64,000 nucleotides of DNA, from IMG/VR virus record IMGVR_UViG_3300019776_000296, positions 1 to 64,000 of that record. One strand, 5' to 3'. The translations under genes were made by a program, and so were the position numbers. Shown here piece by piece: positions 41,910 to 63,890 of the stretch; position 1 is the first letter of the stretch; every line of letters begins with the position of its first letter. The notes below the pieces were generated by a model, which had not been told where the DNA came from, did not search any database, and saw only the letters and a program-made list of their open reading frames with translations. This stretch comes from a virus.

Positions 41910-41921
41910 GAAGGTGATTCA

Positions 41922-42056
41922 GTGATCGACTGCACATGCAGTCACCCAGATTTTCAGCACGACGAATTCGGTTGCACATCACTCGTCTGCTGTGACCAGT
42001 ACCCGCAGCTTGTCCACTCAGCTATCCAGTGCCAATGCCTTGGTGTTCATGTCTAA
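41922..42056 (+). CDS. 44-residue Cys/His-rich mini-protein
   Basis: GTG start after AGGAAGGTGATTCA. Contains CTCSH, FGC, VCC and CQC, seven Cys plus several His, so probably zinc-binding. Overlaps the next gene by 8 nt. Confidence 0.55.
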   Translation: MIDCTCSHPDFQHDEFGCTSLVCCDQYPQLVHSAIQCQCLGVHV

Positions 42057-42537: not shown

Positions 42538-42941
42538 GACTCAGTGAAAAGCGTTGCCGCAAAATGGTTTACGAACGCAGCGGTGGTCTGTGTGAACGGT
42601 GCGGCATGGGCGGTCACTCGTATCACCACCGAAAGAACAGGAGTGCCGGTGGTGAATGGTCTTGTGCGAACATCGTTTACCTGTGCGGCGACGGTGTACG
42701 AGGCTGTCATGGTTGGGTCACTACACACCCTCGCGAGGCTGAACGAGAAGGTTTCCACGTCCCGCAATGGCTCGACCCAGCCGACGTTCCAATCCTCCTC
42801 CACAGGCGGCTGACCTGCGGTTTGAGTTGCAACGAACCGTCATACACTAGTACTGCACAACCAACACACGACAAGCACAGAGAGACACAAGAAATTGACT
42901 GGACTTCCGCAGACCACAATCGTTGGGACGCTGACTGGTGA
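42534..42941 (+). CDS. HNH endonuclease
   Basis: 135 residues, GTG start overlapping the upstream stop. CERCGMGG, SYHHRKNRS, NIVYLCGDG and CHGWV form a zinc-bound HNH core (about 20-62). The last ~40 residues look poorly conserved and overlap the SSB promoter and start, so the functional protein may end near residue 95 in relatives. Confidence 0.75.
   Translation: MRLSEKRCRKMVYERSGGLCERCGMGGHSYHHRKNRSAGGEWSCANIVYLCGDGVRGCHGWVTTHPREAEREGFHVPQWLDPADVPILLHRRLTCGLSCNEPSYTSTAQPTHDKHRETQEIDWTSADHNRWDADW
42826..42848 (+). promoter_or_regulatory. GTTGCAACGA-N7-TACACT element before ssb
   Basis: Third member of the motif set, with TTTGA just upstream. It lies within the end of the HNH frame, 47 nt before the SSB start, and may give an internal promoter for replication genes. 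Confidence 0.4.
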
Positions 42942-43290
42942 TCCCGAAATCAAAGCTCTCCCTTCAGGTTTGTTCGTCGCCACGGTGAACATTGCGTGCA
43001 ACGAGCGCAAGTACAACAAGGACACGCAGTCCTACGAGAACGGCGATCCGACCTACCTCCGTGGCACCGTCTGGCGTGAGTACGCAGAGAACGTGGCGAA
43101 CTCACTTCGCAAGGGCGACAAGGTGATTGCCACCGGCAAGCTCCGCATGCGCTCGTGGGAGAAGGACGGCCAGAAGCGCACCAGCTTCGAACTCGACATC
43201 GAAGAGATCGGGCCGACGCTGCGCTTCGTCGCCGTCGCTCCTCTCGCAGCCGCATCGACCGGCGGTGCCGACGACGAGCCGGGTTGGTGA
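42895..43290 (+). CDS. ssb: Single-stranded DNA-binding protein
   Basis: 131 residues, TTG start. OB-fold pattern: TTIVGTLTGDPEIK, VATVNIACNERKY, LRGTVWREYAENVANSL and VIATGKLRMRSWEKDG. It ends in an acidic DDEPGW tip, as in SSBs that recruit partners. It coats ssDNA at the fork. Confidence 0.93.
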   Translation: MTGLPQTTIVGTLTGDPEIKALPSGLFVATVNIACNERKYNKDTQSYENGDPTYLRGTVWREYAENVANSLRKGDKVIATGKLRMRSWEKDGQKRTSFELDIEEIGPTLRFVAVAPLAAASTGGADDEPGW

Positions 43291-43796
43291 CACTCACCTC
43301 CGGTGAGGCGCGAAAGAAGAACCGGGCAGCCTTCGATCTGTTCTGGAAGGCATACCCCAAAAAGATCGCGCCGACAGAAGCGGAGCGGGTCTTCAGTGAA
43401 GTGGTCGAAAAAGGTGCTGACCCAGACCATTTGATCAAGAAGGCACGAGCTTATGCGCTCACTGTTGACCCGAATGATCTGAAGTACGTTCCCTCGCCGC
43501 ACTCTTGGCTGAAGCAGGGTCGCTATGACGACGCAGACCTGTTCACCAATCAGCTTGAGGCAGAGAAGGAATGGCTCAGGGAGTGCTGGCGCACAGCGAA
43601 CGTCAAGGCGGTTGAAAACCGTTACCACGTCACGTTCGACAAGCAATATCCACCGGACGAAATGACTGATCCCAAGGCAATCAAGCTGTGGTATCAGGAA
43701 ACGGCACGGGCTTGGATATCCAAAATCGTTGAGGAGCAAGTAATTTGCCGGGAAGAAGAGAGCCAGCCCACGATGCTCTCGCAGAGCAATCAGTAA
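43287..43796 (+). CDS. Replisome organiser / helicase loader-like protein
   Basis: 169 residues from the GTG overlapping the SSB stop. The region FDLFWKAYPKKIAPTEAERVF and later VPSPHSWLKQGRYDD is a conserved C-terminal pattern of phage replication initiation proteins. It probably loads the DnaB helicase encoded next. Overlaps that gene by 52 nt. Confidence 0.75.
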   Translation: MTLTSGEARKKNRAAFDLFWKAYPKKIAPTEAERVFSEVVEKGADPDHLIKKARAYALTVDPNDLKYVPSPHSWLKQGRYDDADLFTNQLEAEKEWLRECWRTANVKAVENRYHVTFDKQYPPDEMTDPKAIKLWYQETARAWISKIVEEQVICREEESQPTMLSQSNQ

Positions 43797-45061
43797 TTGG
43801 AGCCTTGCTTCACAACGCAACAGCGTTCGCAGACCTGGGCGGGTTGAAGCCGGAACACTTCTACCGGCCCGTTCACGAGAAGCTATTCAACACAATCCAG
43901 CAGATGTACAACGATGGCGAGGCCATCGACGCGGCAACGGTTTTCGCCAAGCTGGAGAAGATAAAGGAACTCCAGAAGATCGGCGGCGCAAGCTATTTGG
44001 GCACGCTGCTGGAAGCTCCGCTGGCACTGAACAACGTCGGCACCTATTCCAAGATCATCCAAGACAAGTGGAAGATCAGGAAGGTCAATGAGTTTGGCAT
44101 CAAGTGCCAGGGCATTGATGCCGATCCTGATGACGTTGACATGGCATTGGAGTCGGTGCGCCAGTTCCTCGACAACGTCGATGAGGAGCGTTCCCACGAG
44201 GCCATCGATTTCCCCGGCCTGTACGAGGCGTGGACGGCAGCGCAGAACGATGACCGGCCTTCCATCGAAACACCTTGGCTTGCAGTCAATGACAAGCTGA
44301 CAGGTGGGTTGCAGCGTCAGCGTCTGTATGTGGTTGGCGCACGGCCAGGTTGCGGCAAGACAGTGTTGGCTGCACAGCTAGGTCTGTATGCCGCACTGTC
44401 ACACCAGCGGGTGTTGTTCTTCTCACTGGAACTATCGAAGGAAGACTTGATGGGCCGCATATTGGCTTGCGGCGCAAGGGTTCCCTACACGGAGATCACG
44501 GCGAAGAGGCTGACTGCTGAATCGTCAGGCAAGATCAGCACCTGGGTTGCGGCCAGCGCAGAGCTACGGATCGAAGTGGACGACACACCCGATCTCAACA
44601 TCGAAGAGATCACTCAGAGGGCGCGAATCCACAAGCAGCGCAAGGGACTTGATCTTGTGTTGATTGACTACCTCCAACTGATGGAGGAGTCTCCTAGTTC
44701 CGGCGAGTCCCGCGTCCAGCGTGTTGACCACATGGCTAAGAGGGCGAGAGCCATTGCAAGGAACCTGGATTGCGCCGTAGTTGTCTGCGCCCAACTGAAT
44801 CGCAACATCGAAGATCACGGTGGAAGGCCAAGGCTCCCAACGAAAGCCGACTTCCGCGAGTCTGGCGGCATCGAACAGACAGCAGACGCTGCCTTCATCC
44901 TTTCCCGTCCACCGGACGATAACGGTGAGGAGTCGAAGATTCCCATGATGAACCTGACGGTGGTGAAGAACCGGCAGGGCACGGAGGGAACGCTGAAACT
45001 CATTGAGCGGTTTGACTTTCAGCGGTTCGACAACGTCCACGCTTATAGCGGAATGGAGTAG
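43745..45061 (+). CDS. dnaB: Replicative DNA helicase, DnaB-like
   Basis: 438 residues, TTG start giving the family start PAHDALAEQSVIGALL. N-terminal domain ~1-110, then RecA-like domain with Walker A GARPGCGKT (about 198-206) and Walker B LVLIDYLQ near 305. It unwinds DNA at the phage fork. Confidence 0.94.
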   Translation: MPGRREPAHDALAEQSVIGALLHNATAFADLGGLKPEHFYRPVHEKLFNTIQQMYNDGEAIDAATVFAKLEKIKELQKIGGASYLGTLLEAPLALNNVGTYSKIIQDKWKIRKVNEFGIKCQGIDADPDDVDMALESVRQFLDNVDEERSHEAIDFPGLYEAWTAAQNDDRPSIETPWLAVNDKLTGGLQRQRLYVVGARPGCGKTVLAAQLGLYAALSHQRVLFFSLELSKEDLMGRILACGARVPYTEITAKRLTAESSGKISTWVAASAELRIEVDDTPDLNIEEITQRARIHKQRKGLDLVLIDYLQLMEESPSSGESRVQRVDHMAKRARAIARNLDCAVVVCAQLNRNIEDHGGRPRLPTKADFRESGGIEQTADAAFILSRPPDDNGEESKIPMMNLTVVKNRQGTEGTLKLIERFDFQRFDNVHAYSGME

Positions 45062-45063
45062 AG

Positions 45064-45180
45064 ATGCTGTACTGGCTGAAGCTGCGGATGTGGCACACGT
45101 TTCGCTGCGGTGGATCGTGGGTTTCCTTCTGCGGCAGCGAGTCCTGCTCGTCATGCGGAGTGTGGAGGAACTGGAGGTGA
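45064..45180 (+). CDS. 38-residue Cys/Trp-rich mini-protein
   Basis: ATG after GGAGTAGAG. Five Cys (one in FRCGG, one in FCGS, then CSSCG) and many Trp. Metal binding likely. Its stop overlaps the next GTG. Confidence 0.5.
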   Translation: MLYWLKLRMWHTFRCGGSWVSFCGSESCSSCGVWRNWR

Positions 45181-45446
45181 GTAAGATCGCGATTCCGGTG
45201 CAGTGGTTGAAGTTTTCGAATACCCATGAGTTGCAAGCCATTTGCCTACAGGGCTGCGTGATCCATCACCGCACGGCGCATCACATGCAGTGGTGGCCTC
45301 TGCATTGGCGCAGTGACCGTTCGATATTCGAACGCATCTGTGAGCATGGGATTGGGCATCCCGATCCAGATCAGTACCCGTACTGGCGGGAGATAAACGA
45401 TATGGCGCAAGCCGTACATGGTTGCGACGGCTGCTGCATTCCATGA
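45177..45446 (+). CDS. Hypothetical His/Trp-rich protein
   Basis: 89 residues from the GTG at 45177 with GGAGG at 8-nt spacing. Rich in His, Trp and Cys, ending CDGCCIP. Function unknown; lies between helicase and WhiB genes. Confidence 0.6.
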   Translation: MSKIAIPVQWLKFSNTHELQAICLQGCVIHHRTAHHMQWWPLHWRSDRSIFERICEHGIGHPDPDQYPYWREINDMAQAVHGCDGCCIP

Positions 45447-45757
45447 AGTTTTGGTCACGCAAGGATGAATGGTTTGAATACGCAGCATGTTTCGGCTCTG
45501 TCGATCACACGCTGCCTCCCGTGCGTGACGATGCTGGGCCAGTCGCTGACTCTCTGCATGTGTGGGCAGTGTGCCTGGAGTGCCGGGTTCGACCTGAGTG
45601 TGCCCGTTGGGCTTTCGAGGGCAGCGAGAGCGGCGTATGGGTTTGTGGTGTATGGATACCGGGCCATGACGAAGACAAGCGGCAGGCCAGGGAACTACGC
45701 ATGAAGTTGTACGAGTCGGTAGAAGAAGAGAGTCAGCAGCGGGGCGAGGATGTGTAG
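45443..45757 (+). CDS. WhiB-family iron-sulfur regulator (first copy)
   Basis: 104 residues from the ATG overlapping the upstream stop. An AACFG Cys, then CLECRVRPEC, then the turn GVWVCGVWIPG, the WhiB pattern with four cluster Cys and a G-x-W turn, plus a basic C-terminus. Phage WhiB proteins can block host WhiB regulators or superinfection. It has an extra Cys in the turn. Confidence 0.85.
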   Translation: MKFWSRKDEWFEYAACFGSVDHTLPPVRDDAGPVADSLHVWAVCLECRVRPECARWAFEGSESGVWVCGVWIPGHDEDKRQARELRMKLYESVEEESQQRGEDV

Positions 45758-45877
45758 CCGCGCTAGCAGGAGCAAGCGGAGTCTTAGCGAATTGAATTGG
45801 CAAACAAGGCGATTCGCCACGCTAGCTGCGGTTATTACGTCAGCGTCATAAAATGACACGCGAGCAGGGAGCTAGCA
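45758..45877 (+). promoter_or_regulatory. Intergenic regulatory region with GCTAGC repeats
   Basis: 120 bp with three GCTAGC palindromes, an inverted repeat GTCAT-AAA-ATGAC that contains a -10-like TAAAAT, and a GGCGA/TCGCC palindrome. A likely promoter for the resolvase/WhiB set, perhaps autoregulated by a neighbouring WhiB. Confidence 0.4.
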
Positions 45878-46267
45878 GTGGCCCGTAATAGACAGTCAGC
45901 CAAGAAAGCTGGCACGGCTTTCGAATCACTGATCGCCAAGGGTCTGCGAGAAGCGTTGGGCGACAACACGATTGAGCGTGCCCCGCGCTGGGGAAGTGTT
46001 GATAAGGGAGACATTATCAATGTGACCATCGACACACACCCAATCGTTATACAAGCTAAAGACGTTGCTAGATTGGCACTTCCATCTTGGACTGAACAAG
46101 CTAGAGTTCAAGCGGCTAATGCTCGTGCGCTCGTCGGCCTGGTTGTACACAAGCGAGTAGGTACAACCGATCCCATGAAGCAATGGGTTAGCTGCACAGT
46201 AGAAGACCTGGTTGCTCTTATCACGAAGACACCAGTTACGAAGGGAAGCAACACAATTGACGATTAA
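45878..46267 (+). CDS. Holliday junction resolvase-like PD-(D/E)XK nuclease
   Basis: 129 residues, GTG start after GGGAG. GTAFESLIAKGLRE, RAPRWGSVDKGDI and VIQAKDV give the E...D...(Q)xK layout of Hjc/Hjr-type resolvases and related nucleases. Would resolve recombination or replication branches before packaging. Confidence 0.7.
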   Translation: MARNRQSAKKAGTAFESLIAKGLREALGDNTIERAPRWGSVDKGDIINVTIDTHPIVIQAKDVARLALPSWTEQARVQAANARALVGLVVHKRVGTTDPMKQWVSCTVEDLVALITKTPVTKGSNTIDD

Positions 46268-46844
46268 CCATGCCTTCAGCGACTTCGACGTAGCAGTTGC
46301 TGGAGAAGAACCGGACTGGCGTATCGGCGCACCATGCAGCACCGTGAACCCTGACCTCTTCTTCGATGACAGCGAAGATGATCCGCTCGTAGAAGAACAG
46401 GCAAAACTCATTTGCATGGGATGTCCCGTTGCTGCCGAATGCCTCGACACAGCCATGCTGGCCCGTGAGGAATACGGCATATGGGGAGGAATGACACCGG
46501 CAGAACGCAAGCGATACCAGGCCACCTGGATGCGACTCAAGGGTGGCCGTAACACCGTCAAGAGCATGCGTGAGAGCAACGGAATCATCTCTGCCGCACC
46601 ACATATCGACCGCAAGTACCACGCACGCCGTGAAGCGGCCACACAGTGCCGCGAAAAGCTATCCCAGGAAACCTCTTACAGCGAACGCCGCGACGAGTAC
46701 CTGATGGTGCTGGACATGATCATTGCCAACCCTGCTGAGGTCAGCACCAAGCTCGCCCAGCGAATCGGGCGCAGCGCAACGTGGTTCAACACGATGAAGC
46801 GAGAAGTGTACGGGCTGTTCGGAATTAGCGAGAAGGGTAAGTGA
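46257..46844 (+). CDS. WhiB-family regulator (second copy) with C-terminal extension
   Basis: 195 residues from a TTG overlapping the previous gene by 11 nt, AAGGGAAG at 8-nt spacing. APCSTVNPDLFF, CMGCPVAAEC and YGIWGGMTPAER give the full WhiB signature (about 25-85). The extra ~100 residues hold a basic helix-turn-helix-like region (STKLAQRIGRSATWF). This may act directly on DNA. Confidence 0.9.
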   Translation: MTINHAFSDFDVAVAGEEPDWRIGAPCSTVNPDLFFDDSEDDPLVEEQAKLICMGCPVAAECLDTAMLAREEYGIWGGMTPAERKRYQATWMRLKGGRNTVKSMRESNGIISAAPHIDRKYHARREAATQCREKLSQETSYSERRDEYLMVLDMIIANPAEVSTKLAQRIGRSATWFNTMKREVYGLFGISEKGK

Positions 46845-47071
46845 TGGACTACGAGTCGATCAGAGAAGAAGGCCAGTTCGATGACGTGGGAACCGTGCGG
46901 GTCTGCGATCAGTTCGGGACCATAGCCGTCTACATCAAGGTAGACGAAAACTCTTGGAAGACTGTGTATGTCGATCCAATTCGCGGCACCGTACTCATCC
47001 CAGATAGGACGCTGTCAAACGCCGTGGCGTGCAGCCACCCAATAGTCTACGCACCGAAAAGCGTTGTGTAG
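46844..47071 (+). CDS. Hypothetical protein
   Basis: 75 residues, ATG overlapping the WhiB stop (TGATG). Beta-rich (VGTVRVCDQFGTIAVYIKV). Function unknown. Confidence 0.6.
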   Translation: MDYESIREEGQFDDVGTVRVCDQFGTIAVYIKVDENSWKTVYVDPIRGTVLIPDRTLSNAVACSHPIVYAPKSVV

Positions 47072-47075
47072 CAAT

Positions 47076-47402
47076 ATGAATGATAGAATTAAACCGGAGG
47101 AAGCCAGCGCGGTTGAGGACTCTCCCGCGCTCACCCCCCGGTCTGATCTGCCGCAGTCTCCCGCGAGCCGACCGGGGGGTTCTCCATATCGCGACAACAT
47201 CGATGACCTGGTCGATGCGTCACTGAAGAGAGGGCCATACGGGAGTACCGGATGGGTTCCGTGCCCAAACTGTAGTAAGGAATGGCACGGCTTCCAGAAC
47301 GGTATCTACTGTCCCGGCTCTCATGTGCGAGAAGGCAAGGGTGCCAATGCGATACGGGAACCAAGCATGGGTGGGACTGGGGATTTATCTTGCAGTAGTT
47401 GA
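47076..47402 (+). CDS. Small zinc-ribbon protein (WHG...CPG type)
   Basis: 108 residues from ATG 47076; the true start may be later. CPNCSKEWHGFQNGIYCPGS matches a short actinophage family with this pattern. Its first part overlies an 11-bp GC hairpin that looks like a terminator. It overlaps the next gene by 56 nt. Confidence 0.5.
   Translation: MNDRIKPEEASAVEDSPALTPRSDLPQSPASRPGGSPYRDNIDDLVDASLKRGPYGSTGWVPCPNCSKEWHGFQNGIYCPGSHVREGKGANAIREPSMGGTGDLSCSS
47133..47180 (+). terminator. Terminator-like hairpin within a reading frame
   Basis: ACCCCCCGGTC pairs perfectly with GACCGGGGGGT over a 26-nt loop, followed by TCTCC. It resembles the hairpin at 36,966. If it terminates, it would lower expression of the exonuclease and HNH genes downstream. 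Confidence 0.5.
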
Positions 47403-47607
47403 ACTACTGGCACCACCCGGCGAGACACTGTCTGAAGCAATGGACAGTTGGCTGGAACGTCACCCAGGAAAAGCCTTGTGCTACATGGCAGTTGGCGTAA
47501 CAGCACTACATCTGGTCAACGCGATACCTCAGCGTTATGACCCTATACACCAAGCCTTTTCGTCCCGCCACTACTTGCAACGGATCGCGATAAGCTTTCT
47601 TGCATGA
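47347..47607 (+). CDS. Actinophage membrane protein
   Basis: 86 residues from the ATG after AAGGGTGCCA. N-terminal hydrophobic segment with RYGNQAWVGLGIYLAVVE and a second around residues 44-60; a final IPQRYDP motif. This arrangement is common in small actinophage membrane proteins of unknown role. Confidence 0.7.
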   Translation: MRYGNQAWVGLGIYLAVVELLAPPGETLSEAMDSWLERHPGKALCYMAVGVTALHLVNAIPQRYDPIHQAFSSRHYLQRIAISFLA

Positions 47608-48362
47608 AAGCAAAGATCGCCGTCCTCGACATTGAGCGGCAAGCCGGTGTGGCAGACGGCATTTGGGAACTGCGCCAGAACGGATGGCTGCACCCAGGAC
47701 AGGTTGTTGAACGGCCACGCACAATCTGCTTTGCATACAAGTGGCTGGGCGGCGACGAGACACTCTTCCACGCCGAATGGGACAAAGGCCCAAAGGCAAT
47801 GGTGAAGAAAGCCCATGACGTTCTCGAAAAGGCCGACTATGTAATCGGCTGGAACTCAAAGAGATTCGACATCCCGCACCTCCGCACGGAGATGATCGTC
47901 CACGAGCTACCGCCGCCTGCCCCGCACAAAGACATCGACCTCATGTTGCAGGCCAAGCGCAACTTCGCATTCATGTCCAACCGCATGGCTGAAGTAGCAA
48001 AGCTGTTGGACCGCAAGGGCAAAATGGATACCGGCGGCGGCGACCTCTGGCGCAAGCTCCGCTACTCAAAAGGCGAAGAGCTATGGGAAGCAAGGCATCT
48101 CATGGCTGAGTACAACATGCGAGACGTGGAACTCACGGAAGAGTTGTACCACCTCATGCTCCCCTGGTGCAGCGGAATGAACGTCGGAGCGTACCAAGAT
48201 GGAGTCGGCCCATTCTGCCCCAACTGCGCCTCAGACCACGTCCAATTCCGTGGAACCGCAGTAACTTCCACCAGAACGTACCGACGCTTCCAGTGCCAGG
48301 ACTGCGGTAAGTGGGGCAGGGAAGCAAAGTCAATCGCATCGACAGATGGAGTATCGCTGTGA
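47604..48362 (+). CDS. DEDD 3'-5' exonuclease with C-terminal zinc ribbon
   Basis: 252 residues. Motif I LDIE (8-11), GWNSKRFDIPHL near 86, and YNMRDVELTEEL near 173 carry the acidic residues of the RNase H-like exonuclease fold. CPNC and CQDC near 205-240 form a zinc ribbon. Probably a proofreading or end-trimming nuclease. It starts next to a GCAACGG-N7-TAAGCT element, so the transcript could begin at or near the ATG. Confidence 0.82.
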   Translation: MKAKIAVLDIERQAGVADGIWELRQNGWLHPGQVVERPRTICFAYKWLGGDETLFHAEWDKGPKAMVKKAHDVLEKADYVIGWNSKRFDIPHLRTEMIVHELPPPAPHKDIDLMLQAKRNFAFMSNRMAEVAKLLDRKGKMDTGGGDLWRKLRYSKGEELWEARHLMAEYNMRDVELTEELYHLMLPWCSGMNVGAYQDGVGPFCPNCASDHVQFRGTAVTSTRTYRRFQCQDCGKWGREAKSIASTDGVSL

Positions 48363-48583
48363 CGAATCCCAAAGTGCGCGTTGAGGATTACCCGCTCATC
48401 TCTGAGTTGGAGGAAGTCTTCTGGCACGAGATCGACCGTCAGTTCATGGACGATGAAATCGAACCCGGCACAATGGAATCCGTGTACGTCGATCCGGTTC
48501 TTGGTGAGATACAAGGGATTCCAGACATCACCAAGGCGATCATCAAAGTACTTGAGGCTTACTGGATCGAAGAAGGCCGCTGA
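48359..48583 (+). CDS. Hypothetical acidic protein
   Basis: 74 residues from a GTG overlapping the exonuclease stop. Acidic, helical; central MESVYVDPVLGEIQG. Function unknown. Confidence 0.6.
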   Translation: MTNPKVRVEDYPLISELEEVFWHEIDRQFMDDEIEPGTMESVYVDPVLGEIQGIPDITKAIIKVLEAYWIEEGR

Positions 48584-48816
48584 TGATGGGCAACCGCTGG
48601 AGCATTCGCAAGGTTGATCGCAAGTGGCGTGTGTATGACCACAACTCATGGCAGGACGTGTTCGACACATTGCCTGAAGCACACACCTACGCAACACAAT
48701 TGGCAGTTGCCGACGATCTGTTCTCGCCGGGTGGTCTGACATACCTGAGTAGCCTCAAGAAGTCTTTTGTTGCGCTGCAACGTGTTAGATACCAAGAGGG
48801 AGTTTTGTCACAGTGA
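48583..48816 (+). CDS. Hypothetical protein
   Basis: 77 residues; ATG 48583 overlaps the previous stop (48586 is also possible). N-terminal W-rich beta part (WSIRKVDRKWRVYD) resembles arm-type DNA-binding domains, but it is too short to judge. Stop overlaps the next GTG. Confidence 0.6.
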   Translation: MMGNRWSIRKVDRKWRVYDHNSWQDVFDTLPEAHTYATQLAVADDLFSPGGLTYLSSLKKSFVALQRVRYQEGVLSQ

Positions 48817-49373
48817 CGGAATGGCAGAAGATACCCGGCCTACCGCCTCGCTTCGAAGCATCTTCTCATGGAGAAATCCGTTCTCTCCCATACGAAGTCA
48901 AAGTCTTAGCCAAGAACGGAACAGTCAAGGTTCGGCGCATTGCCGGTAAGACGCTGCTCCCCCGCGTCACTGATCGCGGCAAGTCACGCGGCCACCCAAT
49001 CGTCTCCATCTCCAGCACCACATCTGCTGGCACATTCGCTGGGGAACAACGTGTTTCACTACTAGTGGCACGCGCATTCCACGGATGCCCTTACGAAGTA
49101 GGCGATCTTGCCTCATCGAACAAGTGGAGAATCCTGCACCTCGACGGCGACATCACCAACACCGCTGCCGACAACCTGGAATGGATCACATCCAACGGCG
49201 GCTCGCCATCGTCAGCCTCGTACAAGCTGTACGAAGAAAACCTCCGCAAGCTGAGGCAGCAGAGCAAAGAACCGTTCATCCTTTGGGCCAAAAGGATTTT
49301 CGGTGATGACTTCGAATTCGAATCGGAAGATCAAGAATGCCTACAACCTCAAAGAACGGGCCAAGATCACTAG
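48813..49373 (+). CDS. NUMOD4/HNH homing-type endonuclease
   Basis: 186 residues, GTG start. The start WQKIPGLPPRFEASSHGEIRS is the NUMOD4 DNA-binding motif; LLVARAFHG, ILHLDGDITNTAADNLEW is the HNH_3 core. A mobile nuclease; possibly domesticated. The tail overlaps the next HNH gene. Confidence 0.85.
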   Translation: MTEWQKIPGLPPRFEASSHGEIRSLPYEVKVLAKNGTVKVRRIAGKTLLPRVTDRGKSRGHPIVSISSTTSAGTFAGEQRVSLLVARAFHGCPYEVGDLASSNKWRILHLDGDITNTAADNLEWITSNGGSPSSASYKLYEENLRKLRQQSKEPFILWAKRIFGDDFEFESEDQECLQPQRTGQDH

Positions 49374-49654
49374 GGCGCAAAGGAATTCGCTTTCAGAAAG
49401 CGAAACAGCGTGTGCTTAGGGCCAACCAGATATGCGACGAGTGCGGGGAATTCATTGACCTGCAACTGAAGTGGCCTGATCCTCTGTCTCCCACAGTGGA
49501 TCACATCATCCCGGTCAACCAGCTTGAGTGGAATGACCCACTCAACTATGACGTAAACAACCTCGTCCCTTGCCATCTCGTGTGCAATCAAAGACGCGGA
49601 GCGAAAAAGAAAAAGCCGCAACAACACCCACAGTCACGCGACTGGTTCTCCTAA
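49337..49654 (+). CDS. HNH endonuclease
   Basis: 105 residues. CDECGEF, VDHIIPVNQ, DVNNLVPCHLVCNQRRG match the McrA-type HNH core with two zinc Cys pairs. Basic C-terminus. Such small HNH proteins often act in packaging, but this one is not beside terminase. Confidence 0.85.
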   Translation: MPTTSKNGPRSLGRKGIRFQKAKQRVLRANQICDECGEFIDLQLKWPDPLSPTVDHIIPVNQLEWNDPLNYDVNNLVPCHLVCNQRRGAKKKKPQQHPQSRDWFS

Positions 49655-49659
49655 TCCAC

Positions 49660-49685
49660 TGGTACAATCAAAGTAGGGAAATCCC
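49660..49685 (+). promoter_or_regulatory. Extended -10 promoter with start-proximal hairpin
   Basis: TGGTACAAT (49660-49668) and GGGA/TCCC hairpin (49676-49685) just after the likely start site. It closely resembles the promoter at 32,476, including flanking CACTGGTA and AAGTAGG. Confidence 0.5.
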
Positions 49686-49718
49686 CTGTGCCCCAAACGA
49701 TCTGAGGATTCTGAAACA

Positions 49719-49883
49719 ATGACCGTGAAGAAGGAAGAGGCTGGCGAGGCTCTCGCCAAGGTGACTCAGCCCGTCGAGACTTCAGCCAAGCCCAAGCCGC
49801 AGACCGACGCTGAACTCAACCACCGCTTCAGCCACGTCGCCCCGTCTGGCGCGAAGAAACCGGACTTCCCCACCAAGCAGTGA
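49719..49883 (+). CDS. 54-residue small protein
   Basis: ATG after CTGAGGATTCTGAAACA, downstream of a dedicated promoter. The C-terminus LNHRFSHVAPSG recalls the L-x-x-RF-x-x-H-x-P motif of short actinophage proteins, some of which sponge immune cyclic nucleotides (Acb2-like); here the following helix is missing, so this link is weak. Confidence 0.6.
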   Translation: MTVKKEEAGEALAKVTQPVETSAKPKPQTDAELNHRFSHVAPSGAKKPDFPTKQ

Positions 49884-49918
49884 CATCCTGAGATCAGTAC
49901 TACCGCAAGGGGATTCGT

Positions 49919-50170
49919 ATGGTTGCCGGTAAAGAGGCATCACCAAAAGATGTCAAGAACACTGAGCAGCTAAAGCGGTACTGGTCGAGGGGAATGGGCG
50001 CAGCCAAAATAAATTGGGGAACTGAGGGCGACTTCTCAAGGTGCGTAACGAATTTGAGTCGGCACCTGAAAGACCCTGAGGGCTACTGCGCCCAACTGCA
50101 CCATGACGTTCTGGGTTACTGGCCTGCAACGCATGCCAAGATGGACAAGGCCAAGAAGGGCAAGAAGTAA
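49919..50170 (+). CDS. Conserved small actinophage protein
   Basis: 83 residues. LKRYWSRGMGAAKINWGTEGDF, then CVTNLSRHL and GYCAQLHHDVLGYWP match a widespread actinophage family of unknown function. Basic C-terminus (KKGKK). Confidence 0.78.
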   Translation: MVAGKEASPKDVKNTEQLKRYWSRGMGAAKINWGTEGDFSRCVTNLSRHLKDPEGYCAQLHHDVLGYWPATHAKMDKAKKGKK

Positions 50171-50196
50171 GTGGGATTCAGGCGTGATACAACCGA

Positions 50197-50225
50197 TTCG
50201 CTTGAGTTCCTACGGTTAGTAATAT
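50197..50225 (+). promoter_or_regulatory. Promoter candidate
   Basis: TTCGCT, 17 nt, TAATAT. It lies 50 nt before the start chosen for the next gene and supports that start over an upstream GTG. Confidence 0.45.
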
Positions 50226-50275
50226 GGGACGTGCTGCGTGAAACACACAGCATCACAAGACAATTAAGGATCGTT

Positions 50276-50614
50276 ATGTCAAATCAAGAAGTGTTCGATG
50301 CATACGCGGAGAGAGTCTCTGAGCAGAACAGCCAGATTCGCGAGGCTGTCACCGTCATCCTTCAGGAGATCGGCAGGCTTCAGGGAGATTCCCTTGCGAC
50401 AAACGAGAAGCCGCTGGACACCGCGAAGATGGAGCAGGCTCTTCAGCAGTTGACTGCTTCTGTCGATGAGGTGGAAGCCATCCATACCGTCGAGGCTCCC
50501 GTCGAGGAAGCTGCGCCGGTCGAAGCTGAGGTCGAAGCTGCCGACGACGAGCCGGTCGAAGTTGTTGAAGAGGCAACTACCGACGCTGCCGACGAGGACT
50601 CCGACGAGGAGTAA
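50276..50614 (+). CDS. Acidic coiled-coil protein
   Basis: 112 residues from the ATG after AAGGATCGTT. Helical N-terminal ~70 residues, then a very acidic Glu/Val/Ala tail. Last rightward gene before the bidirectional terminator. Could be a DNA mimic or virion protein; unknown. Confidence 0.65.
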   Translation: MSNQEVFDAYAERVSEQNSQIREAVTVILQEIGRLQGDSLATNEKPLDTAKMEQALQQLTASVDEVEAIHTVEAPVEEAAPVEAEVEAADDEPVEVVEEATTDAADEDSDEE

Positions 50615-52660: not shown

Positions 52661-52724
52661 TGTGCATGGCGGGAGTCGAACCCGCAGCACCAGGACGAAT
52701 CCTGTTGCAGCCCAATGCATGCAC
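52661..52724 (-). ncRNA. tRNA-like intergenic element A1
   Basis: Starts 8 nt after the TAA of the DUF932-like gene. Acceptor GTGCATG/CATGCAC, discriminator A. T-arm GCGGG/CCCGC with loop TTCGACT. D-like hairpin GCA-TTGGGC-TGC with a GG loop. In place of the anticodon arm, CAGGA/TCCTG with a TTCG tetraloop. A 10-bp leader hairpin with loop ATTC follows, then AACACAAGGGAAGAGG. No anticodon is possible. Confidence 0.82.
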
Positions 52725-53812: not shown

Positions 53813-54016
53813 TTTAGTGGATTCCCTTCTCTTCCTTGTGTTTTGGTGCAAACCCTGCACCGGGGGTACTGCAACTGGCGACTGAGCCAGCAGGACACGG
53901 CACCGTGCTGTCACCACGGTGCCGTGCTACAACCCGCTCAGTCATACCCCCAATTTACAGAGGGGGTGAGTCTTGCTCAGACGAGCAACACTCAAGGGTT
54001 GTTGTGGGACAACGGA
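53813..54016 (-). ncRNA. 204-nt structured gap with nested hairpins
   Basis: In order after the stop: GTTGT/ACAAC; TGAGT plus TTGCTC / GAGCAA plus ACTCA; ACCCCC/GGGGGT; then an 8-bp helix GACTGAGC/GCTCAGTC enclosing a perfect 12-bp hairpin CACGGCACCGTG/CACGGTGCCGTG; then leader hairpin GGTGCA/TGCACC and AACACAAGG. No T-arm and no hammerhead core. Confidence 0.6.
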
Positions 54017-55408: not shown

Positions 55409-55473
55409 TGTGCCAACTGGGAGTCGAACCCAGAGCAATCAACCCGAAAGTTGTTGCAGCCCAATGCAAGCAC
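55409..55473 (-). ncRNA. tRNA-like intergenic element A2
   Basis: Starts 7 nt after a TAG. Acceptor GTGCTTG/TTGGCAC (one mismatch, G-U pairs), discriminator A. T-arm CTGGG/CCCAG with TTCGACT. The D-like GCATTGGGCTGC is identical to A1. Hairpin CAACT/GGTTG with TTCG loop. Leader hairpin CATACCA/TGGTGTG follows. Confidence 0.78.
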
Positions 55474-56057: not shown

Positions 56058-56123
56058 TGTGCATGGTGGGAGTCGAACCCACAGCAAAAACTTTTGAAAG
56101 TCATTGCAGCCCAATGCATGCAC
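56058..56123 (-). ncRNA. tRNA-like intergenic element A3
   Basis: Starts 6 nt after a TAG. Acceptor GTGCATG/CATGCAC, discriminator A. T-arm GTGGG/CCCAC with TTCGACT. D-like hairpin as in A1. Hairpin GACTT/AAGTT with TCAA loop, so the stem sequence differs from A1 and A2 while the fold is kept. Leader hairpin ACCCCAAC/GTTGGGGT follows. Confidence 0.82.
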
Positions 56124-57329: not shown

Positions 57330-57395
57330 TGTGCCGCAGTGGAATTGAACCACCGTCACCCTGAAGGGTGATACGCACCAATTGCGTTGCGGCAC
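57330..57395 (-). ncRNA. tRNA-like intergenic element A4
   Basis: Starts 7 nt after a TAA. Acceptor GTGCCGC/GCGGCAC, discriminator A then encoded CCA (57327-57329). T-stem GTGG/CCAC with loop TTCAATT. D-arm ACGCA/TGCGT with loop ATTGG. Hairpin TCACCC/GGGTGA with TTCA loop replaces the anticodon arm. Among the set this has the best D-arm. Leader hairpin TGTCCC/GGGGCA follows. Confidence 0.85.
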
Positions 57396-57880: not shown

Positions 57881-57941
57881 TGGACTGTGGGACGTTTGAA
57901 GCCCTACCCCACAACAGCCGAAAGCTGTTGCGGCACAGTCC
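57881..57941 (-). ncRNA. tRNA-like intergenic element A5
   Basis: Starts 15 nt after a TAG, preceded by TCGAAT. Acceptor GGACTGT/ACAGTCC, discriminator A. T-stem GGGC/GTCC with loop TTCAAAC. One extended 10-bp hairpin CCGCAACAGC/GCTGTTGTGG replaces D and anticodon arms. Leader hairpin GCTGCACCA/TGGTGTGGC follows. Confidence 0.75.
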
Positions 57942-57956
57942 ATTCGAGATGTAGTG

Positions 57957-58335: not shown

Positions 58336-58407
58336 TGTGGCTGGAGGAATCGAACCTCACCAGCATGACGCTGGCACCTCACCCCAAACACGTTGGGGCG
58401 CAACCAC
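58336..58407 (-). ncRNA. tRNA-like intergenic element A6
   Basis: Starts 10 nt after a TAG. Acceptor GTGGTTG/CAGCCAC, discriminator A then CCA (58333-58335). T-stem GAGG/CCTC with TTCGATT. Two inner hairpins: CCCCAA/TTGGGG and CCAGC/GCTGG with loop GTCAT. At 72 nt it has tRNA length, but neither inner loop has T33 in a 7-nt anticodon loop. Leader hairpin has loop AATTC. Confidence 0.78.
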
Positions 58408-58417
58408 ATTCGAAGAG

Positions 58418-59140
58418 CTACTTGCTCTTCTTCTCCTTCTTCACGGAGAACAGCACAGACTTCCGACCGTAGATGCACAAACCGCAACGGGCACAAGCAC
58501 TTCCGCGCTGATCGATCAGCGGCAGTGCCCCGTTATTCTCCGGACACCTTGTGGCACCAGGGAATTCGGCCTGAGCATCAGCGAAAGTCTCGCCAACGTA
58601 GGCGACGTTAATGCCTTGCGCCGCAAGGTGTTTCGCCGCTGTGATGTTGTCGCGGTCACCGCTGAAGTACAGCCCAAGGTTGGGCAGGTTCAGCTTGTGC
58701 AGGTACACGGCAGAACCGGGCACCCTGGTGTACACCCAGAACTGTGTGTCCTGGTGTGCCGCAACAACTTTCGACCAGGCAATCATGTAGTCGGTGCTGA
58801 AGAAGTCACCGTCCCAATGGATTCGGAAAAGCTTTGGCGCAGAACGCTTCTCGCATTCGGCCTCGAAATCCGTGATCATCTGGTCGAGCATGTCGAACAT
58901 CTCGCTGCGTGAAATGCCTTGCAGTGCATCCCAATTGCGCTTCAGCAGTGCGGAGACTGCGGGGCGCAACCGTTCAAGCTTGCCTGCGTAGCAGATCAGC
59001 GCACAGAACGCGGTCTGTGCAATGCACGAGAACGCTTCACCGGAGGGGATGCCAAAGCTGTTGGCTACCAACGGCTTTGTGCCAGCCTTGTTCACGGCAG
59101 AAGCGACCTTAGTGTCATTACTGCGCTGGAGATTGGACAT
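58418..59140 (-). CDS. Gene product 88-like protein
   Basis: 240 residues. Matches the gp88-like mycobacteriophage family: N-terminal CIAQTAFCALICYAG cluster, middle HWDGDFFSTDYMIAWSKVV, VYTRVPGS and GLYFSGDRDN, and C-terminal CARCGLC. The Cys clusters and barrel-like strands suggest an iron-sulfur or radical-SAM-like enzyme, but no CxxxCxxC core is exact. Function unknown. ATG after GGGAAGAGG. Confidence 0.8.
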   Translation of the reverse strand: MSNLQRSNDTKVASAVNKAGTKPLVANSFGIPSGEAFSCIAQTAFCALICYAGKLERLRPAVSALLKRNWDALQGISRSEMFDMLDQMITDFEAECEKRSAPKLFRIHWDGDFFSTDYMIAWSKVVAAHQDTQFWVYTRVPGSAVYLHKLNLPNLGLYFSGDRDNITAAKHLAAQGINVAYVGETFADAQAEFPGATRCPENNGALPLIDQRGSACARCGLCIYGRKSVLFSVKKEKKSK

Positions 59141-59203: not shown

Positions 59204-59258
59204 TGTGCCGCAGAGGTTTCGAACCTCAGCGTCACGCTAGCCAAAAGGCTTGCGGCAC
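59204..59258 (-). ncRNA. tRNA-like intergenic element A7
   Basis: Starts 12 nt after a TAA. Acceptor GTGCCGC/GCGGCAC, discriminator A then CCA (59201-59203). T-stem GAGG/CCTC with TTCGAAA. Minimal inner hairpins AGCC-TTTT-GGCT and AGCG-TGA-CGCT. At 55 nt it is one of the smallest. Leader: 10-bp hairpin TGCTGTAACG/CGTTGCGGCA. Confidence 0.8.
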
Positions 59259-59643: not shown

Positions 59644-59721
59644 TGCGACTGGAGGATTCGAACCTCACCGCCACCAGGACGGCACCTCACTGCATCACGA
59701 GATGTGTTGCAGCGCAGTCGC
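59644..59721 (-). ncRNA. tRNA-like intergenic element A8
   Basis: Starts 7 nt after a TAG (CTCGAAA between). Acceptor GCGACTG/CAGTCGC, discriminator A. T-stem GAGG/CCTC with TTCGAAT. Inner hairpins CATC/GATG (loop TCGT) and GCCG/TGGC. Leader hairpin TGCATCC/GGGTGCA with loop GACC. Confidence 0.8.
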
Positions 59722-60018: not shown

Positions 60019-60077
60019 CCAGTAAGGCAAGGACACAGCCAGACGAATCTGGCTGTGCCCCAACGTCACTGGACGTT
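60019..60077 (-). ncRNA. Long-hairpin intergenic element C1
   Basis: Overlaps the upstream TAA. CCAGT pairs with a distal ACTGG and encloses a 13-bp hairpin GGGCACAGCCAGA/TCTGGCTGTGTCC closed by a TTCG loop. Sister of C2, where CCAATG/CATTGG covaries. A leader hairpin CCACA/TGTGG (loop CGGTA) and AACACAATTGGGAG follow. No T-arm. Confidence 0.65.
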
Positions 60078-60315
60078 ACTTGCGTCGGAGAACAGGGTTG
60101 ACGTTAGGCACATGTGCCACAACGATTTTCAGCTCCACGCAATACCCTTCAGGGCAAAGGGATTGCATGTGGTCAACAGCGTTGCGAATGTGTAATGCGG
60201 TGTCGCGCTGCCGTTTTGCCACGCCGGTCATACCCTCACGCTCAGCCCGGTCTGCCTCGCATTCAAATGCGACGACAGTGTCCATCGAATTGATGTGGAT
60301 TGAGTACTCAGACAT
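60076..60315 (-). CDS. Hypothetical protein
   Basis: 79 residues from ATG 60315 after TTGGGAGACAAC. Alpha/beta (VVAFECEADRAEREG). The stop lies inside element C1. Unknown. Confidence 0.62.
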   Translation of the reverse strand: MSEYSIHINSMDTVVAFECEADRAEREGMTGVAKRQRDTALHIRNAVDHMQSLCPEGYCVELKIVVAHVPNVNPVLRRK

Positions 60316-60365: not shown

Positions 60366-60428
60366 TGGGTTGCCGGGGATCGAACCCGTCACAGTGTGAG
60401 CCGCCCGTAATACGTTGCGACACAACCC
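60366..60428 (-). ncRNA. tRNA-like intergenic element A9
   Basis: Starts 6 nt after a TAA. Acceptor GGGTTGT/GCAACCC, discriminator A then CCA (60363-60365). T-stem CGGG/CCCG with TTCGATC. Inner hairpins CGC..CGT-ATT-ACG..GCG and TCAC-ACT-GTGA. Confidence 0.75.
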
Positions 60429-60434
60429 ATTTTG

Positions 60435-60639: not shown

Positions 60640-60693
60640 TGCTACTGCGGGAGTCGAACCCTTGCCGCCCGTAATACGTTGCGGCACAGTAGC
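60640..60693 (-). ncRNA. tRNA-like intergenic element A10
   Basis: Starts 8 nt after a TAA (TCTCGAAA between). Acceptor GCTACTG/CAGTAGC, discriminator A then CCA (60637-60639). T-stem GGG/CCC with TTCGACT. One long hairpin TGCCGC..CGT-ATT-ACG..GCGGCA. 54 nt. Leader hairpin TGCATCG/CGGTGCA with loop AATCA. Confidence 0.8.
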
Positions 60694-61048: not shown

Positions 61049-61115
61049 CCAATGAGGCAAGGACACAGGCAGGTACATTGCTGTAACTGCCTGTGCCCCA
61101 ACGCCATTGGACGTT
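61049..61115 (-). ncRNA. Long-hairpin intergenic element C2
   Basis: Overlaps the upstream TAA. CCAATG/CATTGG encloses a 12-bp hairpin GGGCACAGGCAG/CTGCCTGTGTCC with an inner TACA-GCAA-TGTA cap (GNRA loop). Leader hairpins CCGTG/CACGG and CTGCA/TGCAG (loop CGGCA) follow. Confidence 0.65.
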
Positions 61116-61353: not shown

Positions 61354-61374
61354 TTCCGTTATCTCCCTTTGTGT

Positions 61375-61444
61375 TTGGCTTGTCTCTTCAGTGGGTAGGT
61401 AGCCAACCTGTCCCAGACCCGTTGCAACGCAACGGGTTTCGACA
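61375..61444 (-). ncRNA. Type II hammerhead ribozyme B1
   Basis: Begins 4 nt after a TAG. Stem II TGTC/GACA is open to the flanks. Then GAAA, stem III CCCGTTGC-GTT-GCAACGGG closed by A15.1-U16.1, cleavage triplet GUC, stem I TGGG/CCCA plus AGGT/ACCT with loop I TGGCT, and core CTGAAGA. Loop I (TTGGCT) can pair with AGCCAA just 3' of stem II, the known type II pseudoknot. Predicted cut between 61416 and 61415. The core matches CUGANGA...GAAA fully. Confidence 0.88.
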
Positions 61445-61448
61445 TTAT

Positions 61449-61736
61449 CTAGTGGCCGCAATCCTCAGCGGGTTGCAGCCAGACGCTCACCATGTCGCGG
61501 TGGATGCCCTCCGTGCTGCCGTTGTCAACCGTCAACATGCCGTTGACGAAAAGGCTTGCACTGGAAGGGATTCCGAACATCTCCAGCACCGTGGTGACAA
61601 CGTCATTGGCAGACATGGCCTGTCCCGCAACGCCGCCAATGATGAAGGACGGCGTGTCGAGAATGGTTTTCTGCCAACCGTTTTCGATCACGGTGCGAAG
61701 GATGCCCACGACATGGTTTCCGTAGTAAGTGGTCAT
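61449..61736 (-). CDS. Hypothetical protein
   Basis: 95 residues from ATG 61736 after AGGGAGAGAACAGAA. Sequence such as VLEMFGIPSSASLFVNGMLT recalls small beta-grasp folds, but no motif is decisive. Lies between hammerheads B1 and B2. Unknown. Confidence 0.62.
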   Translation of the reverse strand: MTTYYGNHVVGILRTVIENGWQKTILDTPSFIIGGVAGQAMSANDVVTTVLEMFGIPSSASLFVNGMLTVDNGSTEGIHRDMVSVWLQPAEDCGH

Positions 61737-61757
61737 TTCTGTTCTCTCCCTTTGTGA

Positions 61758-61827
61758 TTGGCTTGTCTCGTCAGTACGGCGGGAGCCACCCAACCGCAGT
61801 CCCGGTGCGTTGCACCGGGATTCGACA
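61758..61827 (-). ncRNA. Type II hammerhead ribozyme B2
   Basis: Begins 4 nt after a TAG. Stem II TGTC/GACA, GAAT, stem III CCCGGTGC-AAC-GCACCGGG closed by U15.1-A16.1, triplet GAC, stem I TGCGG/CCGTA plus GGG/CCC with loop TGGCT, core CTGACGA. AGCCAA 3' of stem II pairs with loop I. Covaries with B1 and B3 in stems I and III. Predicted cut between 61799 and 61798. The triplet is not GUC but obeys the broader NHH rule. Confidence 0.85.
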
Positions 61828-61831
61828 GCTA

Positions 61832-62161
61832 CTAGCTGTAGTAGCGTCCGACCACAACCCGCTCGTAATCCGGTGTGGTGCAACCGAATTCGATGGGCCA
61901 CCGCACCAGGACACCGCTGAAGAACGAGTCGGTCTGGATGCCGTCCCAACGCTGCAACGAATCCGGCACGCCAGCCGCGAAATGCGTTGGCACATAGCTG
62001 AATTCGTTCACGTCGTAGAAGCTGCCCAGGTACTGGAAGATACGCGGCGAGAAACGATCCTCGCCCTCGACGTAGTCGAACCAGTGCTGCTCAGCGACCG
62101 GCACCTGATCAACCGAAATCAGTTCGCGGGGAACATTATTGGTGATGATGGTGATGGACAT
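61832..62161 (-). CDS. Hypothetical protein
   Basis: 109 residues from ATG 62161 after AGGGAGAGAACA. DYVEGEDRFSPRIFQYLGSFYDVNEF; acidic and aromatic-rich, an anti-restriction-like composition without clear family. Unknown. Confidence 0.62.
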   Translation of the reverse strand: MSITIITNNVPRELISVDQVPVAEQHWFDYVEGEDRFSPRIFQYLGSFYDVNEFSYVPTHFAAGVPDSLQRWDGIQTDSFFSGVLVRWPIEFGCTTPDYERVVVGRYYS

Positions 62162-62211
62162 TGTTCTCTCCCTTTGTGTTTGGGTCTGCCTCACCGGACG
62201 GTGAAGCATTG

Positions 62212-62266
62212 TGCGACTGCGGGATTCGAACCCACGCTGCCCGGTAATGCGTTGCAGCACAGTCGC
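62212..62266 (-). ncRNA. tRNA-like intergenic element A11
   Basis: Starts 7 nt after a TAG (ATCGAAA between). Acceptor GCGACTG/CAGTCGC, discriminator A. T-stem GGG/CCC with TTCGAAT. One hairpin GCTGC/GCAGC with inner CG-CATTAC-CG. Leader hairpin GCTTCACCG/CGGTGAGGC. 55 nt. Confidence 0.8.
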
Positions 62267-62273
62267 TTTCGAT

Positions 62274-62597
62274 CTAGGCCGAACGTGTCACCAGGTACAG
62301 CCTGCCCTGGTGGCGCGAGGTGGTGACGGAGTACTTAACCGGCGGGATTGTCCACTGCCCGTTGGCATGCCACGCAATTGGCGTGGCGTAGCTGTAGACA
62401 GCGAAGAAATCCGTTGCCGCAGAAGCGGTTTCGAAGTCGCCGTGGTACTCGTCAGGCAGCTTGCCGACGCTGGTCGGATGCGACCAACCACCACCAGTGA
62501 AGATGGGGCGAGTCGAACCGAAAACCGTTCCGTTGCAATTGAATTCGCGACGGTCACGGATCAGCGTGGGGATGCTGCTGAGGGTTGCCTTGATCAT
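62274..62597 (-). CDS. Hypothetical protein
   Basis: 107 residues, ATG after GGGAGGTAAGAGAA. Beta-rich, Trp/Thr-rich (GQWTIPPVKYSVTTS). First cistron after hammerhead B3. Unknown. Confidence 0.62.
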   Translation of the reverse strand: MIKATLSSIPTLIRDRREFNCNGTVFGSTRPIFTGGGWSHPTSVGKLPDEYHGDFETASAATDFFAVYSYATPIAWHANGQWTIPPVKYSVTTSRHQGRLYLVTRSA

Positions 62598-62618
62598 TTC
62601 TCTTACCTCCCAATAGGT

Positions 62619-62688
62619 TTGGCTTGTCTCGTCAGTACGCCGGGAGCCACCCGAACGTAGTCCCGTTGCTAGGCAACGGGATTCGACA
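62619..62688 (-). ncRNA. Type II hammerhead ribozyme B3
   Basis: Begins 2 nt after a TAG. Stem II TGTC/GACA, GAAT, stem III CCCGTTGC-CTA-GCAACGGG with U15.1-A16.1, triplet GAC, stem I TACG/CGTA plus CGGG/CCCG with loop TGGCT, core CTGACGA, pseudoknot partner AGCCAA. Predicted cut between 62660 and 62659. Confidence 0.85.
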
Positions 62689-62690
62689 AA

Positions 62691-63095
62691 CTAGTCGAGC
62701 TTCAGATCAGCGGGGAACGTGAACCCGCCGACATCACTCAAGCAGTCGGACATGAAGATCAGCGAGTCGAGGTCATCGAAGTCGGGATGGTCACTGAAGT
62801 CGAAATCGATTATCTCGCTTACGTTTTCGCCATCCGTGCTGTACCAGAAGTCATCGTCGCGGTCTGCTGTGGCGAGGTCGATATCCTGTTGGATACCTTG
62901 CATCTCATCCATTGCCGCGACGAAAGCCTCTGTGTGAGCAGTGATTTCGTTCTCGTCAACGTCGATCTCGTCTTCCTTGTAACCAACCAGCGTGACCAGT
63001 TCTTCGATGGCGAAGATTGCCGCCTGAAGGGCTGTCTCCCAACGCATTTCAGCAGTTGCTGGCATGCCGTTGATGTAGCCGCTGTTGTTGATCAT
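62691..63095 (-). CDS. Acidic hypothetical protein
   Basis: 134 residues from ATG 63095 after TTGGGAGACAAC. Very acidic C-terminal half (DFDFSDHPDFDDLDSL), helical first half. Could be a DNA mimic; unknown. Confidence 0.65.
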   Translation of the reverse strand: MINNSGYINGMPATAEMRWETALQAAIFAIEELVTLVGYKEDEIDVDENEITAHTEAFVAAMDEMQGIQQDIDLATADRDDDFWYSTDGENVSEIIDFDFSDHPDFDDLDSLIFMSDCLSDVGGFTFPADLKLD

Positions 63096-63153: not shown

Positions 63154-63210
63154 TGGACTGTGGGACGTTCGAAGCCCTACTCCCCAACGAATTACGTTGG
63201 GGCACAGTCC
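63154..63210 (-). ncRNA. tRNA-like intergenic element A12
   Basis: Starts 12 nt after a TGA. Acceptor GGACTGT/ACAGTCC, discriminator A. T-stem GGGC/GTCC with TTCGAAC. One 8-bp hairpin CCCCAACG-TAATT-CGTTGGGG. Leader hairpins TGCCTC/GAGGCA and CACGG/CCGTG (loop CGGTT). Shares acceptor and T-stem with A5 while the central hairpin differs. Confidence 0.8.
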
Positions 63211-63549: not shown

Positions 63550-63890
63550 GTGTTCTCTCCCTTTGTGTTTGGGGTGGTTACCTGCCGGGTAGCAGGACAG
63601 GAAACAGGGTGCATTGCTGCACCCTGTATCCCGCTCAGACACCCGAAAGTGCCCGAAACACAATGGAATTGGGAAAGAGAGTACGCAGACAACATGAACC
63701 CGCCGCCAGTGGTATCACCGCACCTAAGCAAGCGTTTGGGAGAGCATGACGTACCGGCAGTTCAGCGGTTATCTGCGTTCGAATCACCTTGTCGCACACG
63801 GCTTTTGCTACTGCGCCTACTTAAACCAGCGGGTACAAACTTGCTGGCACCACGTTGCGTTGCAACGGGTTTCGGGTATCTGCCAAGCAG
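63550..63890 (-). other. 341-bp gap: GNRA hairpin and hammerhead-like remnant
   Basis: No convincing gene. Near the downstream gene: a 13-bp hairpin GGA..ACAGGGTGCA-GCAA-TGCACCCTGT..TCC (63600-63631), leader hairpin CCTGC/GCAGG (63581-63596), AACACAAAGGGAG. Near the upstream stop (about 63845-63873): GAAACCCGTTGC-AAC-GCAACG resembles hammerhead stem III with a CCAGC/GCTGG stem after it, but CUGANGA is absent. Confidence 0.5.

Follow-up and report, generated by a model that had tools for sequence, protein, structure and literature searches.

Hammerhead ribozymes, tRNA-like structures and long stem-loops as candidate mRNA-processing elements in the early-gene gaps of an actinophage

The early region and its intergenic RNAs

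The stretch of DNA analysed here (hereafter the window; 64,000 nucleotides, positions 1 to 64,000 of IMG/VR record IMGVR_UViG_3300019776_000296) belongs to a virus record of 67,761 bases and comes from an actinophage whose nearest named relatives are the cluster M mycobacteriophages, to which it is related through a DUF932 protein that is 62-66% identical and portal DNA that is 76% identical. Between ~52.6 and 63.6 kb a single structured RNA occupies nearly every gap that separates the early genes of the minus strand, and the inventory of these gaps comprises three hammerheads, 12 tRNA-like structures (TLS) and about four long stem-loops. The first-pass annotation of this DNA had drawn attention to the hammerheads and overlooked the TLS and stem-loops in the neighboring gaps, among which the hammerheads are the minority element. 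Pfam assigns no family to 8 of 10 early proteins. Searches of IMG/VR found no relatives of those encoded at 61832-62161 and 58418-59140, and for the DUF932 protein returned a single contig, L059, as the sole relative; the protein of 62691-63095 has no match in phages. The product of 58418-59140, on the minus strand, is a Gene product 88 family protein (PF17338), a family common to cluster A mycobacteriophages and Streptomyces phages. The idea that each gap contains an intrinsic terminator or its own promoter was rejected, as promoter- and terminator-like sites show no excess in 52-64 kb, a result that fits one long transcript. To the right of the window, at 65.0-67.0 kb of the record, long non-coding stretches contain numerous short palindromes resembling CGTTGYGGCRCAACG, which may be repeats that serve a regulator or replication.

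Three type II hammerhead ribozymes

Three minus-strand RNAs, in the same orientation as the early genes, had been proposed to be type II hammerhead ribozymes, and each was recovered at its proposed place with a complete core, three stems, the H17 cleavage nucleotide, a possible pseudoknot and covarying homologues. Hammerhead B1 (61373..61444) opens with one side of stem II (61441-61444, paired with 61381-61384), and continues with GAA (61438-61440), stem III (61429-61437/61417-61425), C17 at 61416 in a GUC site, stem I starting at 61415, and the core CTGAAGA (61385-61391); cleavage is predicted between 61416 and 61415, and TGGCT (61401-61405) can form a pseudoknot with AGCCA (61376-61380). Hammerhead B2 (61756..61827) has C17 at 61799 in a GAC site, a predicted cut between 61799 and 61798, and a pseudoknot of 61784-61788 with 61759-61763, while hammerhead B3 (62617..62688) has C17 at 62660, likewise in a GAC site, a predicted cut between 62660 and 62659, and a pseudoknot of 62645-62649 with 62620-62624. 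The three read TGTC-GAA-ACCCGTTGC/GCAACGGGT-C-TGGG...CCCA-CTGAAGA-GACA-AGCCA (B1), TGTC-GAA-TCCCGGTGC/GCACCGGGA-C-TGCGGT...GCCGTA-CTGACGA-GACA-AGCCA (B2) and TGTC-GAA-TCCCGTTGC/GCAACGGGA-C-TACGTT...GGCGTA-CTGACGA-GACA-AGCCA (B3). The core CUGANGA ... GAA is complete in each, present as the CTGAAGA or CTGACGA plus GAA that had been described as intact; stems I, II and III are ordered as in an open-stem-II hammerhead, and the H17 nucleotide is C throughout. The pair 15.1-16.1 is A-U in B1, giving an NUH site, and U-A in B2 and B3. The GUC and GAC sites are thus as first read, and the suggestion that B2 and B3 may cut more slowly agrees with the behavior of the U15.1-A16.1 variant, which is active but slow and self-cleaves less efficiently (PMC3088659). 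The hammerheads start 4, 4 and 2 nt past a stop codon (B1, B2 and B3, respectively), within the 2-4 nt first given. Their description as lying in consecutive or near gaps also stands, with B1 and B2 in consecutive gaps and a single gap, occupied by a TLS (62213..62266, minus strand; followed by a hairpin and a Shine-Dalgarno sequence), intervening before B3.

A chance origin of these structures was ruled out by shuffles and by an independent covariance model. When the 67.8-kb record was dinucleotide-shuffled 30 times and searched on both strands, a hammerhead descriptor gave 5 matches in total and 0 with a score of at least 17, as against 3 matches at that score in the real record. The dedicated covariance model, built with a hand-set structure from 12 IMG/VR hammerheads to the exclusion of the window sequence, scored B1 at 55.2 bits (E 1.2e-10), B2 at 49.8 bits (E 2.7e-9) and B3 at 53.0 bits (E 4.2e-10) in a 0.75-Mb search. 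The Rfam model RF02276 reports B2 at 25.9 bits and B3 at 26.7 bits, both below its gathering score of 37, and does not list B1; this reflects a curated cut-off rather than a functional feature, given the E-values of 1e-10 to 3e-9 with the dedicated model. Among 14 related named phages the dedicated model found 0 matches (some phages being covered in part), and RF02276 found 0 across the whole records of the same 14.

Searches of IMG/VR with the 17-base pattern ACTGANGAGACAAGCCAA recovered 55 stretches, most of which contain a complete type II hammerhead, with arrays of nine on one contig and five or six in successive gaps on others. A loop-I/3' pseudoknot of at least 4 pairs is possible in 75 of 79 distinct hammerheads, including those of the window, and its pairs compensate across the collection (TGGCT/AGCCA, TGCCC/GGGCA, TGGGTT/AACCCA, TAGCCT/AGGCTA and others). 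In a gap-free subset of 12 hammerheads 99.3% of the cells are paired, and both sides have changed in 17 of 23 pairs. Two further proposals can be placed against this background: the compensating changes reported in stem III, the 15.1-16.1 pair and stem I are few within B1-B3 and match the covariation of the wider family, and the proposed pairing of loop I TGGCT with AGCCA is possible in all three and covaries in the homologues. Among the 79, the U15.1-A16.1 pair is confined to B2 and B3. By every sequence criterion testable here, then, the assignment of B1-B3 to the type II hammerheads is supported.

Clusters of type II hammerheads between the genes of prophages have been described before, with a proposed role in mRNA processing, and cleavage of tandem prophage hammerheads has been observed in E. 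coli as well as in vitro (Perreault et al. 2011, PMC3088659). The clustering, the pseudoknot and the U15.1-A16.1 variant are all part of the published record, and B1-B3 join this known kind. They resemble the prophage hammerheads (PMC3088659; RF02276) in architecture, core, pseudoknot, intergenic position and number per genome, and differ from those of PMC3088659, among which the U15.1-A16.1 variant is also described, in that they share their slot with TLS and stem-loops; in the collection of 79 made here, that variant occurs in B2 and B3 only. A cultured relative in this respect is the Streptomyces phage Hank144, in which about 8 type II hammerheads, unannotated in its record, occupy early gaps of the region 38000-50547 on the minus strand. 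Like the window phage it has several in consecutive early gaps; unlike the window phage it showed no TLS in the stretch read.

One conceivable fate of the cut ends is religation to circular or spliced RNAs, as the 2',3'-cyclic phosphate and 5'-OH left by hammerheads are substrates of RtcB and cluster M phages encode this ligase. However, we consider this highly improbable: RtcB was not found in the 67.8-kb record of the window phage, the cluster M phages that do possess it are without hammerheads, and a search by Perreault et al. for spliced or circular RNAs arising from prophage hammerheads was negative (PMC3088659).

tRNA-like structures of the window

The most frequent element in the early gaps is a TLS that consists of an acceptor and T-arm helix of ~12 bp and has no decoding arm; on folding, most of the gaps reveal one. 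These RNAs have neither the anticodon arm of a decoding tRNA nor the recognition by gene finders that goes with one: ARAGORN reports 0 tRNAs in the window and the Rfam tRNA model gives one match at threshold. They do have the shape of an RNase P-type substrate, with a coaxial acceptor/T helix of ~12 bp, a T loop and an RCC(A) end. The first true acceptor position is G, the acceptor is followed by A and then C, and a complete CCA is present in about half of the window copies. The sequence GGTTCGANTCC occurs in nine copies on the minus strand and in none on the plus strand. A descriptor specifying a TTCRANN loop closed by 12 bp of acceptor plus T helix, the helix being interrupted on its 5' side only, matched 9 times on the minus strand, 0 times on the plus strand and 0.1 times per shuffle, with 8 of the 9 matches in early gaps; as the descriptor was built after the first examples, the real tests are the plus strand, the shuffles and other phages. 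A further 3-4 early-gap TLS were identified by a looser test or by eye, bringing the total to twelve, and mismatches occur in 2 of the 12.

All lie on the minus strand. Apart from the copy between B2 and B3, they are, from the right, 63155..63210 (acceptor of 8 and T stem of 4 bp, T loop TTCGAAC); 60641..60693 (acceptor of 7 bp, weak T stem with one mismatch, 3' ACCA; found by eye and under the descriptor threshold); 60366..60429 (8+4 bp, upstream of the gene 60076-60315); 59645..59721 (7+4 bp, two internal arms); 59205..59258 (8+4 bp, 3' ACCA); 58336..58408 (8+4 bp, two internal arms, weak Rfam tRNA-Sec match); 57881..57942 (9+4 bp); 57331..57395 (acceptor plus T helix of 12 bp, 3' ACCA); 56059..56123 (7+5 bp); 55410..55473 (by eye; imperfect acceptor with one mismatch and two wobbles); and 52662..52724 (7+5 bp, downstream of the DUF932 gene, Rfam tRNA 29.2 bits).

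The ninth descriptor match, at 205-283, belongs to a tmRNA-like element on the minus strand (201-283; RF00023, 59.8 bits), which comprises the tRNA-like domain alone and has no room for a tag-coding part. Similarly shrunken tmRNA-like elements occur in contigs with hammerhead arrays (L105:1689-1766 and L106:7478-7554). Cluster M phages combine a full tmRNA with the RtcB RNA ligase (Bongo 14448-15680) and have no hammerheads, the window phage being the reverse with respect to hammerheads and RtcB.

Mini tRNA mimics and exchange of elements among related phages

In Papyrus, Fowlmouth and Indlulamithi most gaps of the small-gene region hold a 40-nt mini tRNA mimic (mini-TLS). Across 34 mini-TLS with an 11-nt insert, 374 of 374 cells are paired (100%) and both sides have changed in 10 of 11 pairs; their covariation score (n=34; from these three phages and others) is 1.02, compared to 0.19 for shuffles, and slid registers do not exceed 0.23. 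The insert conserves GG at the position of the tRNA D-loop G18-G19, and the loop is TTCGANT, as if the elbow of a tRNA had been kept and the decoding half dropped. In three annotated stretches, which are 76-86% coding, 34 of 42 mini-TLS descriptor matches fall in annotated gaps, and a scan of bacterial genomes gave just three, unrelated-looking matches. The 40-nt model has no match in the window, because the inserts of the window TLS are longer; the two groups have the tRNA top half in common, and their membership in one family is not proven. Weak mascRNA matches were seen in Indlulamithi. On contig L139 a hammerhead and a possible mini-TLS occur on the plus strand (4658-4715 and 9874), which perhaps makes it a second mixing phage, although this is too little to count it as one. 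The open-access literature searched, which does not include the main cluster M paper, gave no account of intergenic tRNA mimics in these phages.

Other early gaps hold long imperfect duplexes, which are predicted from their shape to be RNase III sites. In the window they occur on the minus strand at 63587..63644 (a long imperfect stem-loop and candidate RNase III site), at 61049..61110, in the gap adjoining that of B1, and at 60019..60072, both followed by a second hairpin, and at 53880..53943, upstream of the DUF932 gene, a position where Bongo has one too. The corresponding early region of Bongo and Rey contains long stem-loops, and the early-gene stem-loops of cluster M lie upstream of CR3/CR4 repeats (PMC7953290 and its reference 15). 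The two systems agree in having a homologous right-arm early region in which each gap carries one element and, after it, a conserved ribosome-binding repeat, whereas cluster M (PMC7953290) has stem-loops only and most window gaps hold TLS or hammerheads.

Comparison of homologous gaps showed that one kind of element can stand in place of another. In the gap below the DUF932 gene, the window and L059 carry a TLS, Papyrus and Indlulamithi a mini-TLS, and Bongo and Rey a stem-loop; in the gap above it, Papyrus and Fowlmouth carry a TLS, and the window and Bongo a stem-loop. A TLS lies upstream of the gene 60076-60315 in the window and also upstream of its homologue in Indlulamithi, which is 70% identical. 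The exchange observed is of TLS for stem-loop; no direct swap of a hammerhead for a TLS at one homologous gap was found, since the available close relatives do not cover 60-63 kb.

These observations bear on the view that the hammerheads cut early mRNA as in Perreault 2011, with the TLS being unrelated to this, either as leftovers of tRNA genes or as RNAs with a different function, for instance to bind translation factors or to act as decoys for defences that target tRNAs. tRNA genes are frequent in phages, those of cluster M carry 20 or more in addition to tmRNA, and EF-Tu and tRNA-modifying enzymes bind the T-loop and acceptor. However, decay of tRNA genes would not spare every acceptor/T-helix pair in dozens of copies while losing the anticodon arm, RNAs without an anticodon cannot decoy anticodon-cutting defences, and the TLS stand one per gap in the same slot as the other processing elements. 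Hence, we regard a separate origin or role of the TLS as unlikely, though it is the strongest of the alternatives. Less probable still is that all these RNAs act mainly as uncut structural roadblocks against ribosome run-on or as shields of mRNA ends: all are strongly folded and lie between a stop codon and a Shine-Dalgarno sequence, but an invariant catalytic core, a covarying pseudoknot and a tRNA top half of fixed length would be superfluous in a simple barrier.

A proposed common slot for mRNA-processing elements

We accordingly favor, with a probability of roughly 0.7, the reading that B1-B3 self-cleave the early transcript and that hammerheads, TLS and long stem-loops are interchangeable mRNA-processing sites in one slot. 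Under this proposal, the hammerheads would cut the long leftward early transcript just past a stop codon; the TLS, to judge from their shape, may be substrates of host RNase P on the 5' side and of a tRNA 3'-end nuclease on the 3' side; and the long stem-loops, on similar grounds, may be those of RNase III. Each cut would free the upstream message and leave the downstream one with a new 5' hairpin, namely stem I of the ribozyme or a hairpin after the TLS, followed by the Shine-Dalgarno sequence and start codon, the probable outcome being stable single-gene mRNAs. The distribution of hairpins is consistent with such an arrangement. In the window one precedes the Shine-Dalgarno sequence in 11 of 12 TLS gaps, the exception being a mis-entered coordinate, as opposed to 0 of 3 hammerhead gaps, and elsewhere the figures are 39 of 50 for mini-TLS and 7 of 70 for IMG/VR hammerheads; the tails past hammerheads are short, and the comparison therefore concerns the presence of a hairpin rather than its strength. 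This is the pattern expected if cutting is the purpose: stem I already leaves a 5' hairpin after hammerhead cleavage, while removal of a TLS would give a bare 5' end unless another hairpin came next. Points against this explanation are that B2 and B3 carry the pair known to slow cleavage, that 2 of the 12 TLS contain mismatches, and that the exchange seen between phages involves TLS and stem-loops rather than hammerheads.

Two known systems offer parallels. In phage T7, RNase III processes the early mRNA into single messages at elements between genes; the window phage would likewise have its polycistronic transcript cut at one element between early genes, though T7 uses a single kind of element and a protein enzyme. 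In the tRNA punctuation of mitochondrial transcripts and in the MALAT1 mascRNA, a tRNA or mimic inside a long transcript marks an RNase P cut. The window TLS share this setting, and differ in having no decoding arm, in belonging to a phage operon and in alternating with ribozymes.

Somewhat more tentatively, but still as the better bet, we propose that any of three chemically different cutting elements can occupy an RNA-processing slot between actinophage genes, among them undescribed minimal tRNA mimics (a fixed-length acceptor plus T-arm helix that has a D-loop-like insert and lacks the decoding arm) as RNase P sites, and that the window phage has all three side by side. The unusual feature is this openness of one early-gene slot to three cuttable kinds of RNA, all found in the window phage, the hammerheads themselves being of a known kind. 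If true, it would extend the 2011 suggestion that polycistronic mRNA is cut by prophage hammerheads to a general rule that can be tested, namely that phages punctuate early operons with any RNA that is cut, be the agent the RNA itself, RNase P or RNase III. Minimal tRNA mimics, missed by gene finders, would be recognized as a widespread family in phages grown on laboratory Mycobacterium smegmatis and Streptomyces, and the window phage would provide a natural side-by-side comparison of self-cleavage and host-enzyme cleavage in one transcript.
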